Shown in pieces: positions 3,162-31,247 of a stretch of DNA of 35,677 nt. The stretch covers positions 777,939-813,615 of the forward strand of contig CP136752.1 of the NCBI GenBank assembly GCA_033471095.1. The letters are read 5' to 3'. The notes below the pieces were generated by a model that was not told where the DNA came from, ran no database searches, and worked only from the letters and a program-made list of their open reading frames with translations. Positions within the stretch are counted from its first letter, which is position 1. Each line of letters begins with the position of its first letter. The translations under genes were made by a program, and so were the position numbers. This DNA is from Nitrosopumilaceae archaeon AB1(1) (GTDB lineage Archaea > Thermoproteota > Nitrososphaeria > Nitrososphaerales > Nitrosopumilaceae).

Positions 3162-4820
3162 ATGGGTTTGAATTATTATTCTATTAAAAAACATATTCTC
3201 AAGGCTCGAAAATTAGTCATACGTGGTACCACAGCTGCAGGCTCTGGGCACCCTGGTGGTTCTTTCTCAATGGCAGAGATTCTAGGATGCATATTTACTA
3301 ATCATTTAAAGTTTGATCCAAAAAATCCAAACTGGGAAGATCGTGATAAATTGATTCTATCAAAAGGTCATGCGTCACCAGGTCTGTTTTCAAATATGGC
3401 CATTGCAAAATACTTTGAGCCATCAGAGTTGGATACTTTGAGACAATTTGGTAGCAAGTTACAAGGTCATCCTGATTTGAAATGTCCTGGTGTAGAGTTT
3501 TGTGGTGGCTCGTTAGGAATTGGACTGTCATTTTCTATTGGTTGTGCACTAGCAGCTAAACTTGATGGAAAGGATCAGCATATCTATACCATAATGGGCG
3601 ATGGTGAATCTGATGAAGGACAGGTTTGGGAAGCTGCTATGACTGCTTCAAAATATAAAATTGATAATCTAACTCTAATACTAGATAGAAATTTTTTACA
3701 ACAGGATTCTTACACTGAAAAAATTATGCCATTAGATACTGAACTACTTGATATGAGATTATCCACGATGAGAGATCCTGAAAAATGGAAGACGGGTATG
3801 AAGTGGAAATCCTTTGGTTGGAATGTTTTAGAAGTGGATGGTCATAAAACTGAACAATTGAATCGAGCTATATTACAGGCTCGTAGCACAAAGAATGTCC
3901 CAACTATAATCATTGCTAGAACAATAAAGGGGAAAGAGATAGAGCATATGGAGCATAATCCAAAATGGCATGGCAAGGCACCTGCACCTGATATTGCACC
4001 TATAATTAATTTAGAATTGGATTCCCAATTCATGATTGCCCCCTCTATAATAGCTGGAGATATGTCTAATCTTGAACGTGAGGTAGAAAGATGTGTAGAG
4101 GGAAAGGCAGATTATATTCATCTTGACGTTATGGATGGGGTCTTTGTTCCCAACAAAACTTTTGACCATGATACCATTAGTAAATTACGGCCAATAACTG
4201 ATACACCATTTGATGTTCATCTCATGATAAATGATCCTCTAAAACATGTGAAAGACTATGTCTCTGTTGGAAGTGATATAATTACTGTACATGCAGAAGT
4301 CTGTGACGCATCTAGTTTTGGAGAAATATTTGATTATTTAACACAGCATCAAATCAGCGCCGGTCTTGCAATAAATCCTGATACTGAATTACCTTTATGG
4401 GCAATTCCGTTTATTTCAAAATTAGATCAGTTAATTGTTATGTCTGTAGTTCCAGGTAAATCTGGACAATCATTTATAGAATCTACTCACATGAAAACAC
4501 AAAATCTTATGAAACAATTACAAGAAAATAATTTTGCAGGTTATGTTGAGATTGATGGAGGTGTGAATCTAGATAATATTGGTATGTGTTTTGATGATGG
4601 TAGTAGAATCTTTGTTGGGGGCAGTGCCATTGTTGGGCAATCTGATGTATCTAAAACAATTCGTAAATTCCGTGACGCAGTTTTGATTGCACGCAGGCGT
4701 AATTTGTTAAATTATGCTAAAAAACTTGGAGGAGATACACTTGTTGAGAAATGGATTAATCTACACGAGATTGGTGCAAAACAAGATCAATTACGTACTA
4801 TACTTGAGGATATGGCCTAA
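3162..4820 (+). CDS. Fusion: transketolase N-terminal subunit + ribulose-phosphate 3-epimerase
   Basis: Residues 1-285 match the N-terminal half of transketolase. They have GSGHPGGSFSMAEILG, LSKGHASPGL, and the thiamine-diphosphate motif GDGESDEGQVWEA starting near residue 146, followed by DRN. Residues ~290-507 are a complete ribulose-5-phosphate 3-epimerase barrel: APSIIAGD, HLDVMDGVFVPN, DVHLM, VVPGKSGQSF, DGGVN and GGSAI. The His and Asp metal ligands and both catalytic Asp are present. About 45 extra residues at the C-terminus (starting RRRNLLNYAKKLGG) are helical and unassigned. The frame is continuous across the junction; an internal ATG at 4032 sits exactly at the epimerase start and could also be used. 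The gene lies 2 bp before the transketolase C-terminal subunit. Together the two supply one transketolase and the epimerase that feeds it xylulose 5-phosphate. Confidence 0.9.
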   Translation: MGLNYYSIKKHILKARKLVIRGTTAAGSGHPGGSFSMAEILGCIFTNHLKFDPKNPNWEDRDKLILSKGHASPGLFSNMAIAKYFEPSELDTLRQFGSKLQGHPDLKCPGVEFCGGSLGIGLSFSIGCALAAKLDGKDQHIYTIMGDGESDEGQVWEAAMTASKYKIDNLTLILDRNFLQQDSYTEKIMPLDTELLDMRLSTMRDPEKWKTGMKWKSFGWNVLEVDGHKTEQLNRAILQARSTKNVPTIIIARTIKGKEIEHMEHNPKWHGKAPAPDIAPIINLELDSQFMIAPSIIAGDMSNLEREVERCVEGKADYIHLDVMDGVFVPNKTFDHDTISKLRPITDTPFDVHLMINDPLKHVKDYVSVGSDIITVHAEVCDASSFGEIFDYLTQHQISAGLAINPDTELPLWAIPFISKLDQLIVMSVVPGKSGQSFIESTHMKTQNLMKQLQENNFAGYVEIDGGVNLDNIGMCFDDGSRIFVGGSAIVGQSDVSKTIRKFRDAVLIARRRNLLNYAKKLGGDTLVEKWINLHEIGAKQDQLRTILEDMA

Positions 4821-4822
4821 TT

Positions 4823-5797
4823 ATGACAGACGTAGAATACGGTGATATGAGAACTGCTTATTCTGATACTCTAGTAGAGATGGGGGACAAGTATCCGAAT
4901 GTAGTGGTCTTGGGAGCAGATACCACAGATTCACTAAAGACATCTCAATTTGGTAAAAAATTCCCCAACCGTTTCTTTAATGTAGGAATTGCAGAAGCGA
5001 ATATGATATCTGTTGCCGCAGGTCTTGCCATGTCTGGTAAAACTGCATTTGCAAGTACATACGCCATATTTCTTCCCGGACGATGCGTGGATCAAATTAG
5101 AAATTCCGTAGCATATCCGACACGACCAGATAAAAAAGGTCTTGATGTAAAGATGGTTGTATCACATGGAGGATTAACAGTTGGCGCTGATGGTGGTTCT
5201 CACCAACAAACTGAAGACGTCGCGATAATGCGTAGTATTCCAAATATTCAAGTTTTAATTCCTGCAGACTCTGTATCTGTATCTGCCCTTACCCGTATAA
5301 TGACTACTAATTATGGTCCATACTATATGAGAATGGCACGATCTAAAACACCAATAATTCATGACAAATCTCAGGAATTTACAGTTGGAAAATGTATAAC
5401 TGTACGTGATGGTTCTGATTGTACTATTTTATGCTCTGGAATTACAGTTCACATGGCTTTAGAGGCAGCTGCCAGTCTCTCAAAACAGAATATATCTTGC
5501 AAGGTTGTAGATTGCTTCTCAATCAAACCTATTGATTCTGCATCCCTCGAGTCGTATGCAAAAGAGACAGGTGCAATTGTAACATGTGAGGAGCACAACA
5601 TTATGGGTGGTCTAGGTTCTGCAGTGGCCGAATCCGTATCCGAATCTTATCCGGTACCGATAACTCGAATAGGGATAAGAGATTCATTTGGAGAATCTGC
5701 ACGAGACTCTGAGATCCCACTCTTATTGGAGAAACATGGAATCACATCTTTTAATATAGCCAAAGCAGTCCAAGATATTCAGGTAAAAAAACGATGA
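4823..5797 (+). CDS. Transketolase C-terminal subunit
   Basis: 324 aa, matching the pyrimidine-binding and C-terminal domains of transketolase. The conserved Glu that activates thiamine diphosphate is in FNVGIAEANM (about residue 54-63), followed by AAGLAMSGKTAFASTYAIF. The middle has a HGGLTVGADGGSHQ segment and the C-terminal domain has EEHNIMGGLGSAV. It works as a heteromer with the N-terminal half encoded just upstream; split transketolases are usual in archaea. It starts 2 bp after the fusion gene and overlaps transaldolase by 4 bp (ATGA at 5794-5797), so the three genes form one operon for the non-oxidative pentose phosphate pathway and ribose 5-phosphate supply. Confidence 0.93.
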   Translation: MTDVEYGDMRTAYSDTLVEMGDKYPNVVVLGADTTDSLKTSQFGKKFPNRFFNVGIAEANMISVAAGLAMSGKTAFASTYAIFLPGRCVDQIRNSVAYPTRPDKKGLDVKMVVSHGGLTVGADGGSHQQTEDVAIMRSIPNIQVLIPADSVSVSALTRIMTTNYGPYYMRMARSKTPIIHDKSQEFTVGKCITVRDGSDCTILCSGITVHMALEAAASLSKQNISCKVVDCFSIKPIDSASLESYAKETGAIVTCEEHNIMGGLGSAVAESVSESYPVPITRIGIRDSFGESARDSEIPLLLEKHGITSFNIAKAVQDIQVKKR

Positions 5798-6444
5798 AAA
5801 TTTTTCTAGACACTGCAAATCTTGATGAAATTAGAAAGTATAATGATATGGGTCTTTTAGATGGAATTACAACAAATCCCTCTCTACTTGCAAAAGAACA
5901 AGGGGATCCAAAGGATGCCATGAAAGAAATTTCTCGTATAATAAAAGGAGATGTAAGTCTTGAGGTGGTATCTACAAATTATGATGGAATGATGGAAGAA
6001 GGTTTCAAACTATGCGAGTATGGTTCTAACGTTGTAGTAAAGTGTCCTATGACTTCAGATGGTTTACGGGCATGTACATCTTTTGTAGAAAAATCCATTC
6101 CTGTGAATATAACTTTGATTTTTTCAGCTAATCAAGCTCTGTTGGCTGCAAAAGCTGGAGCAAAATACGTGTCCCCCTTTATCGGTCGACTCGATGATAT
6201 TGGATTTGACGGTATGCAACTGATAAGGGATATAAAAACAATATTTACTAATTATAATTTCAATACACAAATTCTTGTTGCTAGTATTCGTCATCCATTG
6301 CATGTAATTGAGGCTGCAAAAATTGGTGCTGATGTAGTAACACTTCCACCTGCAGTTCTTGGAAAAATGTTAAAACACCCTTTGACTGATCTTGGTCTTG
6401 ATGCATTTTTGAGTGATTGGAAAAAAACAAATTCTACTCTATAA
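5794..6444 (+). CDS. tal: Transaldolase, short TalC/FSA-type
   Basis: 216 aa, the length of the small transaldolase/fructose-6-phosphate aldolase subfamily. It opens with MKIFLDTANLDEIRK and GITTNPSLLAKE. The Schiff-base lysine is K83 in VVVKCPMT. Later come NITLIFSANQALLAAKAGA and YVSPFIGRLDD, both family hallmarks. The reaction moves a dihydroxyacetone unit between sugar phosphates; within this operon transaldolase rather than aldolase activity is the more likely role. ATG overlaps the preceding stop. Confidence 0.92.
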   Translation: MKIFLDTANLDEIRKYNDMGLLDGITTNPSLLAKEQGDPKDAMKEISRIIKGDVSLEVVSTNYDGMMEEGFKLCEYGSNVVVKCPMTSDGLRACTSFVEKSIPVNITLIFSANQALLAAKAGAKYVSPFIGRLDDIGFDGMQLIRDIKTIFTNYNFNTQILVASIRHPLHVIEAAKIGADVVTLPPAVLGKMLKHPLTDLGLDAFLSDWKKTNSTL

Positions 6445-18739: not shown

Positions 18740-19939
18740 ATGGTTCTTGTAATTGATGCTCAAATTGCAGGCATATCCGGCGATATGTTGCTATGCTCTC
18801 TTGTACACTTGGGGGCTGATTCATCTAAGATTATTCATGGTGTTAAACACGCTGTCACCTTTTTGCCAAATTCTTCTATTAATGATATCGAATTCGTCAA
18901 AGTGAATAAAGGAGGAATTCAAGCAACTAGTTTAAAATTAGATATTACTAATGATACAGATTCACGTAGCGGAAAGGATATGATTACTTGTATTACACAG
19001 GCAATTGAATCTCTACAACTCTCTGATTCTGCAAAACAATTTACTAAATCTTGTATTATTCATCTAATCAATGCCGAATCTAAAATACATGGCGTCTCAC
19101 CTGATTCTGTTCATCTTCATGAGGCCTCTAGCATTGATACTATTGTAGATATTGTAGGATGTGCCATTGCACTTGATGATTTAGGTATATTTGGAGATGT
19201 CGTGATATCAACACCTGTAGCTGTGGGTGGAAAATCTGTTACTTTTTCACATGGAGTAATGTCTAATCCTGCTAGTGCAATTCTTGAAATTTTTTCTCAA
19301 ACCTCTACAAATATTGTGGGCGGTCCTGTAGATGTGGAACTGACTACTCCTACAGGTGCTGCACTGCTTGTAAATCTTGCAACTCTTCATCAAAAATTTT
19401 ATCCCACAATGAATGTAGATACCGTTGGATATGGAGCAGGCTCTCGTGATTTAGATGGAGTATCTAATGTACTGAAACTTGTTCGTGGAAACATTACTGA
19501 TAATCATGATTCTATCAATATTCTTGAAACTAATCTTGATGATGTATCTGGTGAATTGCTGGGTCATCTGATTGATACCCTCATGAGTAATGGGGCAGTA
19601 GATGTTACCATTGCCGCAGGAATTACGAAAAAAAGTAGACCCACACACTTGGTGACTGTTTTGTGTATGCCATCGAACACTGAGAAACTTTTAGAACTAC
19701 TGCTCTCTGAGACTCGTACACTAGGTGTACGTGTTAAATCCTCTGAAAGATTTGTGCATCTGCGTGATGTACAGTCAGTTGATGTAATAATTAATGGTGA
19801 AACATTTACAATACAATGCAAAGTATTTGACGGTCATATGAAACCAGAATTTGATGATGTTGCAAAGATTGCTAAAAAATTAAACATGCCACTAATAGAT
19901 ATTAATGAAATGATTCTCACACAACTTGGAAATAAATAA
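18740..19939 (+). CDS. larC: Nickel-pincer cofactor biosynthesis protein LarC
   Basis: 399 aa. LarC inserts nickel into the pincer nucleotide using CTP (cyclometallase). The N-terminus DAQIAGISGDMLLCSLVHLGA matches the LarC/DUF111 opening. Further family segments are VHLHEASSIDTIVDIVG, GPVDVELTTPTGAALLVNLA and LETNLDDVSGELLGHLIDTL. In some bacteria LarC is made by ribosomal frameshifting between two reading frames; here one frame covers both halves. The stop is directly followed by the larE ATG. A TATA box at 18711-18720 sets a leaderless start. Confidence 0.92.
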   Translation: MVLVIDAQIAGISGDMLLCSLVHLGADSSKIIHGVKHAVTFLPNSSINDIEFVKVNKGGIQATSLKLDITNDTDSRSGKDMITCITQAIESLQLSDSAKQFTKSCIIHLINAESKIHGVSPDSVHLHEASSIDTIVDIVGCAIALDDLGIFGDVVISTPVAVGGKSVTFSHGVMSNPASAILEIFSQTSTNIVGGPVDVELTTPTGAALLVNLATLHQKFYPTMNVDTVGYGAGSRDLDGVSNVLKLVRGNITDNHDSINILETNLDDVSGELLGHLIDTLMSNGAVDVTIAAGITKKSRPTHLVTVLCMPSNTEKLLELLLSETRTLGVRVKSSERFVHLRDVQSVDVIINGETFTIQCKVFDGHMKPEFDDVAKIAKKLNMPLIDINEMILTQLGNK

Positions 19940-20733: not shown

Positions 20734-21888
20734 ATGATTTACCTAGATAACGCCGCATCTACAGCTATTCATCCTGATGTACTTGACGCGATGCGACCAT
20801 ACTTTACACAAGAGTATGGAAATCCATCTTCAATTCATAGATCTGGTCGTGTATCGAGAAGAGCAATATTTGATGCGCGTGAACAAATTTCAAAATTAAT
20901 AGGTTCAACCCATGACGAAATTTTATTCACTTCTGGTGGCACAGAATCCAACAATATGGTATTCAATATTGTTTCTGGGGGTAAAAAGAGACATGTTGTT
21001 ACAAGTAGTATCGAGCATGAATCTGTTTTACAACCTTGTAAAAAACTCGAATCTATTGGTTTTGATGTTACATATCTGCCTGTAGATGAATACGGAATTA
21101 TTAACACAGAGATGATACATGATGCCATACGTGATGATACGTGTCTTGTGAGTGTAATGTTTGCAAATAATGAAGTTGGAACCGTACAAAATATTAGAGA
21201 TATTGGAAAATTATGTAAAAGATATAATGTATCATTTCACACTGATGCTACACAAGCTCTTGGGAAAATCCCAATAGATGTACATGATTTATGTATTAAT
21301 TTAATGTCAATATCTTCACACAAAATTCACGGTCCCAAAGGCGTTGGCGCGTTGTATGTACAAAATGATCTAGAAATTTTACCATTAATTTTAGGTGGTG
21401 GTCAAGAAAATGGTATGCGCTCTGGTACAGAAAATGTATCAGGTATAGTCGGTTTTGGAACTGCCTGTAAAATTGCTATGGAAAATATGTCAAAAAATAT
21501 ACAAGCAATGATGTCTATGCGCAATAAATTAAATGATAAAATTCAAAGCACACTAAAACACATAGAGTATAACGGTCATCCTACACAACGACTCCCAAAC
21601 AATTCTCATTTTACATTTTTAGGATTAAATGGTGAAGATTTTATTGTCAAATTAGATGAAAATCATATATCTGCATCTACTGGCTCTGCATGTTCTTTGA
21701 TATCTCAACAAGAATCTCATGTTTTAAAAGCTATGAATTTATCATATGAACAGATCTTAGGTTCATTACGTCTGACAGTGAGTTCTTTGAATACACTTGA
21801 GGAGATGGAAAAAGCATCTGATATACTAATTAGTACTGTAAATGATCTACGACGTGTATCGCCATATCGTGAAAAATATGGATTTTAA
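20734..21888 (+). CDS. Cysteine desulfurase (NifS/IscS family)
   Basis: 384 aa PLP enzyme that takes sulfur from cysteine. Opening MIYLDNAASTAIHPDVLDAM; FTSGGTESNNM binds PLP; HTDATQALGK; the Schiff-base Lys is in SSHKIHGPKG (about residue 197); the catalytic persulfide Cys is in ASTGSACSLISQ (about residue 319). The tail HVLKAMNLS...LGSLRLTVS is typical. Genes of this family usually feed iron-sulfur assembly. Its place 2 bp after larE makes delivery of sulfur to LarE, or building of a LarE cluster, an attractive extra role. No scaffold gene is adjacent. The end overlaps a PEFG gene tail to tail by 4 bp. Confidence 0.92.
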   Translation: MIYLDNAASTAIHPDVLDAMRPYFTQEYGNPSSIHRSGRVSRRAIFDAREQISKLIGSTHDEILFTSGGTESNNMVFNIVSGGKKRHVVTSSIEHESVLQPCKKLESIGFDVTYLPVDEYGIINTEMIHDAIRDDTCLVSVMFANNEVGTVQNIRDIGKLCKRYNVSFHTDATQALGKIPIDVHDLCINLMSISSHKIHGPKGVGALYVQNDLEILPLILGGGQENGMRSGTENVSGIVGFGTACKIAMENMSKNIQAMMSMRNKLNDKIQSTLKHIEYNGHPTQRLPNNSHFTFLGLNGEDFIVKLDENHISASTGSACSLISQQESHVLKAMNLSYEQILGSLRLTVSSLNTLEEMEKASDILISTVNDLRRVSPYREKYGF

Positions 21889-27100: not shown

Positions 27101-27453
27101 CCAGAGCTAGAGGTCAAGTACAAATGTTAACAAAGCAACCTACCGAAGGTAGAGCACGAGGCGGTGGTCTTCGATTTGGCGAAATGGAACGTGACTGTAT
27201 AATTGCCTATGGTGCATCTATGATACTCAAAGATCGATTACTTGATGAATCAGACAAATCTGACATTTATGTCTGTGAGAGATGTGGTCTAGTTGCATAC
27301 CATGATGTAAAACAACGCAAGTATGTCTGCAGAGTCTGTGGTGATAAATCCAAAGTATCTTCTGTATCTGTTGCATATGCATTTAAATTATTGCTACAAG
27401 AAATGCAAAGTCTCAACGTTGCGCCTAGATTGATAATTCAGGAGAAGATTTAA
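24103..27453 (+). CDS. rpoB: DNA-directed RNA polymerase subunit B (unsplit)
   Basis: 1116 aa, a full-length beta-like subunit, not divided into B' and B'' as in many methanogens and halophiles. Recognisable parts: RRIQSPLSRTQPNFEARDLH and HFGRICPSETPEGSNCGLVKN (fork and substrate region), GYNIEDAIVLSQSSIDRG, RDMRAPEIGDKFAARHGQKG with the active-site Lys residues, and TEGRARGGGLRFGEMERD. The C-terminal zinc site CERCGLVAYHDVKQRKYVC-x2-C is intact. It overlaps rpoA by one base (TAATG), the usual coupled arrangement. Confidence 0.97.
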   Translation: MSHPSNKRWPIIQDILSKEGIARQHLNSFNEFLDVGLQSIIDEADHIEIENTDYPYRIKLGKIKLQPPRMIELDGSITSIIPAEARLRNITYAAPLMMEASVVEDGKVLENKFINIGEVPIMIKSHACILNSLTDDKLIDYSEDSHDPGGYFIINGSERVVVGLEDLSYNKIIVDKEMISNKVVYKAKVYSSIVGYRAKLELIMKDDGLIVGRIPGSPVDIPVVTLMRALGMESNRDIATSVSLVDEIQESLEGSFEKASNVLTSKDAIVYISKRIAPGMLEEFQIKRAETLLDWGLLPHLGKRPENRKEKALFLGEAVCKLLELKLGWIIPDDKDHYGNKVIKFAGQMLGDIFRTAFRNLIRDMKYQLERSGQKRGINAVAAAVRPGIVTDKLNNAIATGNWGRGRVGVTQLLDRINYLSTISHLRRIQSPLSRTQPNFEARDLHATHFGRICPSETPEGSNCGLVKNLALSALISINVPSQTIIEKIYEIGVVGLTDSTDDVKKNSARIFVDGRFIGYYKDGIKLVESLRDMRRTGKIHPHISIAFSESEESKSTRRVYISCNAGRVMRPLIILENGQPLLTQVHLTKITKRVIQWTNLLNNGIIELIDANEEENCLVTLDEKDASGYTHMEIFPSAILGAGASIIPYPEHNQSPRNTYEAAMAKQSLGFSSPMMSTSTYVRQHFMVYPQTPMVTTKAMGLLGLEDCPAGQNCVVAVLPFDGYNIEDAIVLSQSSIDRGLARSFFYRIYDAEAKQYPGGKRDTFEIPSVEDDIRGYKGERAYHLLEADGVVSKESNVVGGDILIGKTSPPRFMGEFNEFETPGQTTRRDTSVGVRPSETGVVDTVIMTQSNEGGKMYKVRVRDMRAPEIGDKFAARHGQKGVLGILAKAEDLPYTAEGLSPDVLINPHAFPSRMTVGMFMESITGKAAALRGSQFDGSAFVGEKMDEVRKIMEVSGFKYSGKEVMYDGRTGKQFPVEVFIGVVYYQKLHHMVADKIHARARGQVQMLTKQPTEGRARGGGLRFGEMERDCIIAYGASMILKDRLLDESDKSDIYVCERCGLVAYHDVKQRKYVCRVCGDKSKVSSVSVAYAFKLLLQEMQSLNVAPRLIIQEKI

Positions 27454-29654
27454 TGTCCGTACAAACTATCAAATTTATTCGTGCGATAAAATTTTCTGTT
27501 TGGTCCCCAACTGAAATACGCAAATATTCTGTTGCTGAAATTACAGCTCCGGAAACATATGATGAAGATGGTATCTCAGTTCAAGGTGGATTGATGGATG
27601 GTCGTCTTGGTGTTTTAGAACCAGGACAAAAATGTCTTTCGTGCGGTAATACTGCTGCTAGATGTCCTGGACACTTTGGACACATTGAACTTGCCGAACC
27701 CGTACTACACATTGCATTTATTGAAAATATTCATAAATTATTATTATCTACATGTTGGTCATGCTCACGTCTAAAAGTAAGTCCATCAGAATTGGAAAAT
27801 TTTTCCAAGATTTTAAAGAAAGAGGCAGCATATACTATTGTCTCTCAAAAACGTATTCCAGAAATGATTCTAGAGAAATCTAGAAAATCCAAAGACTGTC
27901 CACATTGTGGTAAAATACAACGTGAATTGATCTTTACAAAACCTACAATATTCATTGAACGTGAAGAGGGAAATGAACATAGACTCTTACCAATAACTGT
28001 ACGATCTAGATTCACTCAGATATTAGATGAAAATCTAAAATTATTGGGATATGATCCTACAACTGCACGCCCAGAATGGTTTATCCTACAAACTTTACCT
28101 GTTCCACCAGTTACAGTGCGCCCATCAATTGTATTGGAAACTGGTATTCGTTCTGAAGATGATTTAACACACAAGATGGTAGATATCATTCGTGTTAATC
28201 AAAGACTCAAGGAGAGTAAAGAGGCAGGAACTCCACCACTAATTGTACAGGATCTAGTAGATCTTTTACAATATCATATAACAACTTACTTTGATAATGA
28301 AGTGTCTGGAATCCCTCAAGCTCATCATCGTTCTGGTAGACCACTGAAAACACTAACTCAAAGACTCAAAGGCAAAGAGGGACGCTTTCGTGGTTCATTG
28401 TCTGGAAAACGTGTAGATTTCTCCAGTAGAACTGTAATTTCTCCTGATCCAAATCTAAATCTCTCGGAAGTGGGTGTGCCAAAAATTGTAGCCATGAAAC
28501 TTACTATTCCTGAGGTTGTTACTGAATGGAATATTGAAAGAATGAAACAACTAGTAGTTAACGGCCCTGCTATATTTCCCGGAGTAAACTATATCGTGCG
28601 TCCAGACGGAGTAAAAATTCGTCTTGATTTTGTAGAAGATCGTTCTGTAATTGCAGATACACTTGATATTGGTTACCTTGTAGAGCGTCATTTGAACAAT
28701 GGTGACATTGTAATGTTTAACCGACAACCCTCTCTTCACCAAATGTCAATCATGGCTCATTATGTACATGTATTGCCTGGTAAGACATTCAGACTCCATC
28801 CATCAGTCTGTCCTCCTTATAATGCAGATTTTGATGGAGATGAGATGAATCTACATGTGCCACAGAGTGAAGAGGCCAGAGCAGAGGCCATACTCTTGAT
28901 GCGTGTACAAGATCAATTAATTTCCCCACGATATGGTGGTCCAATTATTGGTGGTCTGCGTGATTTCATCACTGGATCATATCTGTTAACTAAAGATGGT
29001 ACTACACTTGGACTAGAAGAATTTTCAAATTATGCAATGCTCGGTGGTTATGATGGTCCACTTCCTAAACCTGATTCTACTGATAAACAAGGTAATCCTG
29101 CATATACTGGTAAACAGTTATTCTCTTTATTTCTTCCATCCGACTTTAACTATGTCATTACATCAAAGTGGTCTAAAGGAACAAAAGGTCCTCAAAAAGA
29201 TGTAGTAATTAAAAATGGTATTCTTCTTAGTGGAGTTATTGATAAATCATCAATCGGTGCTGAAGAACCTGAAAGTGTACTTCACCGTATAACTAAAGAT
29301 TATGGTAACTCTGATGCTAAAAAATTCCTAAATTCTATATTAATTATAGTAAAACAATTTATCACTCATTATGGATTTAGTTATGGTTATGCTGATCTAG
29401 AATTATCTGAAAAAATACGTAAAGAGATTCTAGATGGTATTGACTCTACTTATGATCAAATATATGATTTAATTGCACAAGCAAAGAAAGGTACACTAAA
29501 ACTTACACGTGGACTATCTCCAGATGAAACTCTAGAGGCGTATATAGTCAATGAGTTATCCAAAGCTCGTGATTTAGCTGGAAGTACAGCTGACAAGAAT
29601 TTTGATCATAGCAACGCCGGTAGAATAATGGCAACAACAGGTGCCCGTGGCTAA
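27453..29654 (+). CDS. rpoA1: RNA polymerase subunit A, N-terminal part, ending at an in-frame TAA
   Basis: 733 aa. Contains the clamp zinc motifs CLSCGNTAARCPGHFGH and CPHCG, the RFRGSLSGKRVDFSSRTVIS segment, RQPSLHQMSIMAH, and the catalytic magnesium site YNADFDGDEMNLHVP (Asp residues near 458-462). It ends GARG-TAA at 29652-29654, within the conserved GARGS-x-x-N motif that normally precedes the bridge helix. The same frame continues at once as the next entry, and the sum of 1263 codons equals a normal unsplit thaumarchaeal RpoA. The archaeal A'/A'' split lies more than 100 residues further on, after the bridge helix, so this break is not that split. If the stop is real, this fragment lacks the bridge helix and trigger loop. 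Confidence 0.9.
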   Translation: MSVQTIKFIRAIKFSVWSPTEIRKYSVAEITAPETYDEDGISVQGGLMDGRLGVLEPGQKCLSCGNTAARCPGHFGHIELAEPVLHIAFIENIHKLLLSTCWSCSRLKVSPSELENFSKILKKEAAYTIVSQKRIPEMILEKSRKSKDCPHCGKIQRELIFTKPTIFIEREEGNEHRLLPITVRSRFTQILDENLKLLGYDPTTARPEWFILQTLPVPPVTVRPSIVLETGIRSEDDLTHKMVDIIRVNQRLKESKEAGTPPLIVQDLVDLLQYHITTYFDNEVSGIPQAHHRSGRPLKTLTQRLKGKEGRFRGSLSGKRVDFSSRTVISPDPNLNLSEVGVPKIVAMKLTIPEVVTEWNIERMKQLVVNGPAIFPGVNYIVRPDGVKIRLDFVEDRSVIADTLDIGYLVERHLNNGDIVMFNRQPSLHQMSIMAHYVHVLPGKTFRLHPSVCPPYNADFDGDEMNLHVPQSEEARAEAILLMRVQDQLISPRYGGPIIGGLRDFITGSYLLTKDGTTLGLEEFSNYAMLGGYDGPLPKPDSTDKQGNPAYTGKQLFSLFLPSDFNYVITSKWSKGTKGPQKDVVIKNGILLSGVIDKSSIGAEEPESVLHRITKDYGNSDAKKFLNSILIIVKQFITHYGFSYGYADLELSEKIRKEILDGIDSTYDQIYDLIAQAKKGTLKLTRGLSPDETLEAYIVNELSKARDLAGSTADKNFDHSNAGRIMATTGARG

Positions 29655-29657
29655 TCC

Positions 29658-31247
29658 TTGAATATTGGTCAGATGGCCGGCTCCCTTGGACAACAATCTA
29701 GACGTGGTGAGAGACTTCTTGTAGGTTATAACAACCGTGCCCTCTCATATTTTAAAGAACATGATGATAATCCAAACGCACATGGATTTGTAAAATCTAA
29801 TTATCGTGATGGTCTGTCTGCACTAGAATTCTTCTTCCACGCTATGGGAGGCCGTGAAGGTCTAGTAGACACCGCTGTACGTACTCAGCAAAGTGGATAT
29901 ATGCAAAGAAGACTGATTAACGCACTAGAGCATATTCGTTTAGAGTATGATAAAACTGTCCGTGATCCTCATGGACACATCGTACAATTTCTCTATGGGG
30001 AAGATGGCATTGATGTCGCAAAAAGTGATCATGGTGAGGCCTTTAATGTAAATCGTCTTATAGAATCTGAAAAAATTGTTGATGTTGGAGCCAAAGCTAA
30101 ATCTGCAGATATTAATGAATTGACAAAAAAATATACTGCTACTTTTAATGCTAGATTGAAACAATTAGTTGTTGATGCACTACTTGTAGGTGAACTGAGT
30201 AAATCAGGAACCGAAAAAGTATGTAAAAAAGGATTAGACTTGTACAACAAAGCACAAGCTGAACCTGGACAAGCAGTTGGAATTGTCACTGCTCAGTCGA
30301 TTGGTGAACCTGGAACTCAGATGACATTACGTACATTCCACTTTGCAGGAATTCGTGAACGAAATGTAACTCTAGGATTACCACGACTCATTGAATTAGT
30401 GGATGCTAGAAAAAAGCCTGTGACCCCTACCATGGACATATATCTTGACTCTAGAATCAAAACTTCTCGTACCGATGCAATCGATGTTGCTAGAAATGTT
30501 TTACAAACCAAAGTATCTTCCTTGATAAGTAGTGCTGACACAAATTATTCTACAAATATCAAATTAGATTTGAATGAGAATCGTCTATCTGAGCGTGGAT
30601 GTACCGCTGAAGATGTTGAAAATGCTCTATCTTCTAATAAAAAATTCAAAATTGATAGACATGATAACGTCTTGTTGCTTGTCATAGCTGAAGAATCTGA
30701 CGTACCGACTGTAATTGCACTACGAAATAAAGTGTTGAATACAATTGTAAAGGGAGTACAAGATATTGAACGTGTAACTTTGATACAAAAAGATAATGAA
30801 TGGGTAATACAGACAACTGGTTCCAACATATCAAAATTACTAGAGGTTAAAGGTATAGATCGATGTAATGTACGTACAAACAATGTTTCTGAAATTGGAG
30901 CAACTCTTGGAATCGAGGCTGCACGTAATGCATTAATTTATGAATTAAACACCACGCTTGCAGATCAAGGTTTGGAGGTAGATATTCGTTATATCATGTT
31001 GGTAGCTGATTTAATGTGTTCACGCGGTTACATGCAACAGATCGGCAGACACGGCGTTGCAGGTACCAAAGATAGTATTCTTGCACGTGCAGCATTTGAG
31101 ATTACCGTACCTACCATTGCTCATGCTGCTTTAGGTGGATCTATAGAAACTCTCAAAGGTGTTACTGAAAATGTGATCGTGGGAAATAACATTCCAATTG
31201 GTAGTGGAACCGTGGATCTCTACATGCAAGTTTCAAAGTCAAAATAA
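29658..31247 (+). CDS. rpoA2: RNA polymerase subunit A, C-terminal part (bridge helix to end)
   Basis: 529 aa counted from TTG 29658, three bases after the TAA that closes the previous entry, in the same frame. It opens with [19 protein letters not shown] (funnel region), then the bridge helix [33 protein letters not shown], the trigger-loop region [19 protein letters not shown], and the C-terminal [17 protein letters not shown]. Start options are weak (TTG 29658; the first ATG is at 29673), with no clear ribosome site after the stop. This favours one original gene interrupted by a stop, through mutation, sequence error or readthrough. A 5' part this long is larger than a classical A'' subunit (about 390 aa). 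Confidence 0.88.

Follow-up and report, generated by a model that had tools for sequence, protein, structure and literature searches.

Does the reading frame at positions 3162 to 4820 of the window (the whole 35,677-nucleotide stretch of DNA analysed here) encode a genuine fusion of the N-terminal half of a split transketolase (TkN) with ribulose-phosphate 3-epimerase (RPE), and, if so, how did the two come to be joined and what would the joining achieve? The frame opens with an ATG at 3162 and runs without an internal stop for 552 codons to a stop at 4818-4820. The gene for the C-terminal transketolase subunit (TkC) and a transaldolase-family gene follow it. The features are as follows.

3162-4820, plus strand: TkN-RPE fusion gene, 552 aa in a single open frame; homologues are full length in more than 100 genomes
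3195-3980, plus strand: transketolase N-terminal (ThDP/PP) domain, residues 12-273; PF00456 Transketolase_N, E 4e-43
3738-3788, plus strand: loop insertion in TkN, about residues 193-209; from the alignment, with low model confidence
3981-4034, plus strand: junction, residues 274-291; the TkN C-terminal helix leads directly into RPE strand 1
4032-4034, plus strand: ATG at the RPE boundary, Met291; a proposed internal start whose start codon is not conserved
4035-4631, plus strand: ribulose-phosphate 3-epimerase domain, residues 292-490; PF00834 Ribul_P_3_epim, E 5e-52
4674-4817, plus strand: C-terminal helical tail, residues 505-552; from the alignment and the AlphaFold2 model
4823-5797, plus strand: transketolase C-terminal subunit (Pyr and C domains), 324 aa; PF02779 and PF02780
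5794-6444, plus strand: TalC/FSA-type transaldolase (likely), 216 aa; PF00923 TAL_FSA, with fsa_talC_mipB above its cut-off

One frame, two complete domains and their operon

A preliminary description of this locus proposed that two complete domains for consecutive pathway steps are truly joined in frame, with all visible catalytic residues present, and both proposals stand. The two Pfam matches are complete and far above their cut-offs, and the RPE half also scores above the cut-off of NF004076. By sequence search the closest PDB relative of the TkN half is chain AAA of 6yak (E 6e-68), which is the N-terminal half of an alpha2beta2 transketolase encoded by split genes, and the RPE half matches many solved ribulose-phosphate 3-epimerases. 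The TkN ThDP/metal motif and substrate histidines (H30, H70, H103, D147-G-E, N177 and H270) show no variation across 101 aligned fused proteins, and neither does the RPE catalytic and metal set of Ser295, His320, Asp322, His353 and Asp465. The residue equivalences are drawn from yeast transketolase for TkN and from human RPE for the epimerase, and we take them to apply here. The loop insertion in TkN is found in most sampled fusions from the same family and is missing both from split relatives and from the second family that has the fusion.

The other half of transketolase and a transaldolase-family gene, which the preliminary description places next in the operon, were identified there by Pfam at 4823-5797 and 5794-6444. 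The TkC frame begins 2 nt past the fusion stop, and the transaldolase-family gene shares an ATGA overlap with the TkC gene before it. Transketolase is thus laid out as in other split-gene forms, with the PP domain on one chain and the Pyr and C domains on another. Because fsa_talC_mipB comprises fructose-6-phosphate aldolase and TalC transaldolase, the product of 5794-6444 is, from its sequence, likely but not certain to be a transaldolase rather than a fructose-6-phosphate aldolase. A genome-wide family search gave a single PF00834 match and a single PF00456 match, both in the fusion gene, and pentose-phosphate interconversion therefore rests on this single protein. One RpiA is encoded elsewhere in the genome, which also has an archaeal amoA. 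Two further features of the window are a 5S rRNA gene (RF00001) at 934-1053, between a ZIP-like gene and an opposite-strand leucyl-aminopeptidase gene, and a LarC-like nickel insertion protein at 18740-19939 (PF01969, E 3e-105), with a class-V aminotransferase gene nearby at 20734-21888.

Distribution and origin of the fusion

Within a set of 61 genomes comprising the window's own and its relatives, the full-length fusion was found in 35 of the 37 from the same family; no match came from the other two, both of them fragmented drafts (88-90% complete). A sample of 397 genomes from the phylum extended this to every one of the 74 genomes in the same family and all 9 from a second ammonia-oxidiser family, and among the matches listed for that sample the TkN-RPE order occurred nowhere outside these two families. 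A scan of named genomes, taken as the best 80 loci, recovered Thaumarchaeota including Nitrosopumilus, Nitrosopelagicus, Nitrosarchaeum and Nitrosotalea; all 80 loci are archaeal and nearly all are titled Thaumarchaeota, so that the scan is uninformative on other phyla.

The fused proteins form one group in phylogenetic trees, with ultrafast bootstrap values of 99 for the concatenated alignment, 100 for TkN and 76 for RPE; the f14 sequence in these trees has a long branch and an unstable placement. The gene order TkN-RPE-TkC-TAL is retained by most families of the same taxonomic order that lack the fusion, and in two of them (f2 and f3) the stop of TkN overlaps, as ATGA, an ATG in the RPE frame (L034 to L037). 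Since unfused relatives share this arrangement, some with ATGA overlaps, a single origin is probable: the common ancestor of two ammonia-oxidiser families would have lost the stop codon between TkN and RPE. An apparent fusion in family f9, where a match read through two stops, was rejected as two adjacent genes.

Families f2 and f3 are amoA-positive with separate TkN and RPE genes, and would fit Nitrosocaldaceae-like deeper branches. A fusion that dates to after the split from lineages of this type, in one such event, explains the data. Two amoA-positive families being unfused, the fusion does not go hand in hand with ammonia oxidation, and we rejected it as a marker of that metabolism itself. 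It is instead a clean marker that separates two ammonia-oxidiser families from ammonia-oxidising lineages with separate genes. Both in the ocean and in soils, ammonia-oxidising archaea rank among the most abundant autotrophs.

A fusion of the same domains in the opposite order, RPE-TkN, of about 537 aa, occurs in a single genus that belongs to a different class of the same phylum (L049:1596-3212 in genome G328 and L050:1684-3297 in G332; 83% identical to each other); of the 251 genomes searched in that class, only these 2 have it. A ribose-phosphate pyrophosphokinase-like gene lies upstream of it and TkC follows. Given the opposite order and an identity of only about 26% between its RPE part and that of TkN-RPE, it is taken as an independent fusion event. 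That this pair of domains has been fused twice independently argues mildly for a selected advantage.

Proposed coupling, the junction and the C-terminal tail

In this protein the ThDP-binding half of the split transketolase carries the cell's only ribulose-phosphate 3-epimerase at its C-terminus. By homology, the TkN part is predicted to pair with TkC, which has its own gene, in an alpha2beta2 transketolase whose PP subunits would bear epimerase domains. The epimerase would interconvert ribulose-5-P and xylulose-5-P, the latter being the donor ketose of transketolase, so that the non-oxidative pentose phosphate pathway would have two of its reversible steps, one directly following the other, held in proximity at a fixed 1:1 stoichiometry. 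We infer this physical coupling and any kinetic benefit from it. RPEs are usually dimers or hexamers, which may count against tethering to an alpha2beta2 enzyme. The linker enters the epimerase at RPE strand 1, which in TIM barrels is at the end opposite the active site, and direct tunnelling between the active sites is for this reason less likely than co-localisation. Taken together, the data are in our view likely to be best explained by a bifunctional subunit in which RPE is tethered to a split transketolase, produced by a single-origin fusion through stop loss. The fusion thereby makes the coupling of consecutive steps in this pathway testable.

It may be, though we think it somewhat unlikely, that the fusion is a neutral accident, in which co-transcribed genes lost a stop codon and gained no functional coupling beyond equal stoichiometry. 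Such an accident would be eased by a gene order, ATGA overlaps included, that was in place before the two genes fused, and one event followed by vertical inheritance is enough to explain the distribution. It sits less easily with the lack of any reversal in the 74 + 9 genomes, with a linker whose length does not vary at all, and with the separate joining of this pair of domains, in the opposite order, in another genus.

The junction itself is strikingly uniform. From the WHG at the end of TkN to the I/V-A/S-PSI that starts RPE there are 23 residues in all 105 distinct fused proteins. Unfused TkN proteins end about 15 residues past WHGKAP and several unfused RPEs start 1-4 residues ahead of IAPSI, and the fusion is therefore nearly end to end. 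The preliminary description pointed to the ATG at the epimerase boundary, 4032, as a possible start for a free epimerase. The codon is indeed present, and ATG occupies this position in 70 of the 105 homologues and TTG in 13, at the place where the RPE of unfused relatives begins. In the other 22, however, the codon cannot start translation (CTA, CTT, CTC, CTG, TTA, TCA, GCC, GCG, GCA or TTC), and SD-like bases lie upstream in only 3/105, a weaker point as many archaeal genes have no SD. As the codon varies and SD-like bases are rare, a free epimerase from 4032 is unlikely to be a conserved product; methionine or leucine at position 291 fits a buried hydrophobic residue. That a free epimerase is also or mainly made, whether by internal initiation at this ATG or by proteolysis at the junction, is likewise opposed by a linker of invariant length that is predicted with good confidence to be helical, and we consider it very improbable. 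An artefact of sequencing or assembly that joined two genes can be dismissed, for although an in-frame stop in rpoA of the same assembly, lacking in 25 relatives, makes single-base errors possible, the same open junction in more than 100 genomes excludes the stop or frameshift near 4020-4035 by which two proteins might have been made, and Padalko et al. 2024 (PMC11237513) describe the fusion from independent work.

The stop in rpoA (27453-31247) is a TAA at window 29652-29654, with the same frame on both sides. In 25/25 relatives rpoA reads through uninterrupted for about 1260-1310 aa, and the TAA is either an assembly base error or a recent nonsense change.

An AlphaFold2 model of the fusion, built with 52 sequences, had a pTM of 0.84 and a mean pLDDT of 82. 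The junction helix (residues 279-287) leads into the barrel, with pLDDT of about 81-90 across this block. In TkN, pLDDT falls below 50 at residues 178-208, and the active-site loops are poorly modelled in the absence of the TkC partner. In fold searches the RPE half matched 2fli and human RPE with target-normalised TM-scores of 0.92-0.93 (0.93 for 2fli) and an rmsd of 1.7, and the TkN half matched 6yak with a target-normalised TM-score of 0.81. Beyond the barrel, as many as 45-50 further residues form a C-terminal tail, which is present in all aligned fused homologues, shorter in the second family, and in the alignment is not present in the sampled free RPEs. It is modelled with high confidence as a long helix (496-533) and a second helix (539-551), and Trp531 is nearly invariant among the 101 aligned fused proteins. 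The tail was considered as a known domain and this was rejected, as it has no PDB relative by sequence.

It is conceivable, though rather doubtful, that at least two archaeal fusions of RPE and TkN, in both orders, arose because a physical complex of RPE with transketolase is selectable in the non-oxidative pentose phosphate pathway, with TkN-RPE forming a structured bifunctional assembly with TkC that is aided by the fusion-associated tail.

Comparison with known systems

The preliminary description knew of no such enzyme, and on this point it was mistaken, at least at the sequence level, at which the fusion is already known through a report in mSystems. Cluster 341.1 of that paper (Padalko, Nair and Sousa 2024; PMC11237513) is a Tkt-N/Rpe fusion, present in 73 of the 98 Thaumarchaeota assemblies. 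The window gene has the same two domains in the same order and in frame, TkN and then RPE, and comes from the same group of organisms, and is a member of this cluster. To the passages there on the fusion, the present analysis adds the anatomy of the junction, the test of the internal start, the phylogenetic limits of the fusion, the C-terminal tail and the fusion of reversed order. No paper on the biochemistry of the TkN-RPE fusion was found in the literature searched.

The closest solved relative of the TkN half belongs to the transketolase of Carboxydothermus hydrogenoformans (ChTK-N and ChTK-C; 6yak), which likewise has TkN and TkC on separate chains. The single chains are inactive and together form an active alpha2beta2 enzyme (PMC7661550). 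Unlike the fusion described here, this enzyme is bacterial and has no attached epimerase. Free RPEs (PDB 2fli and 3ovr; PF00834) share the TIM-barrel fold and the catalytic and metal residues with the window RPE, which differs from them in its position behind TkN and in the helical tail that follows it. The archaeal Hps-Phi fusion of the ribose-from-fructose route, discussed in PMC11237513 as well, also joins consecutive steps in pentose-phosphate supply, but it involves other enzymes and another pathway and, unlike the window fusion, has been validated experimentally.
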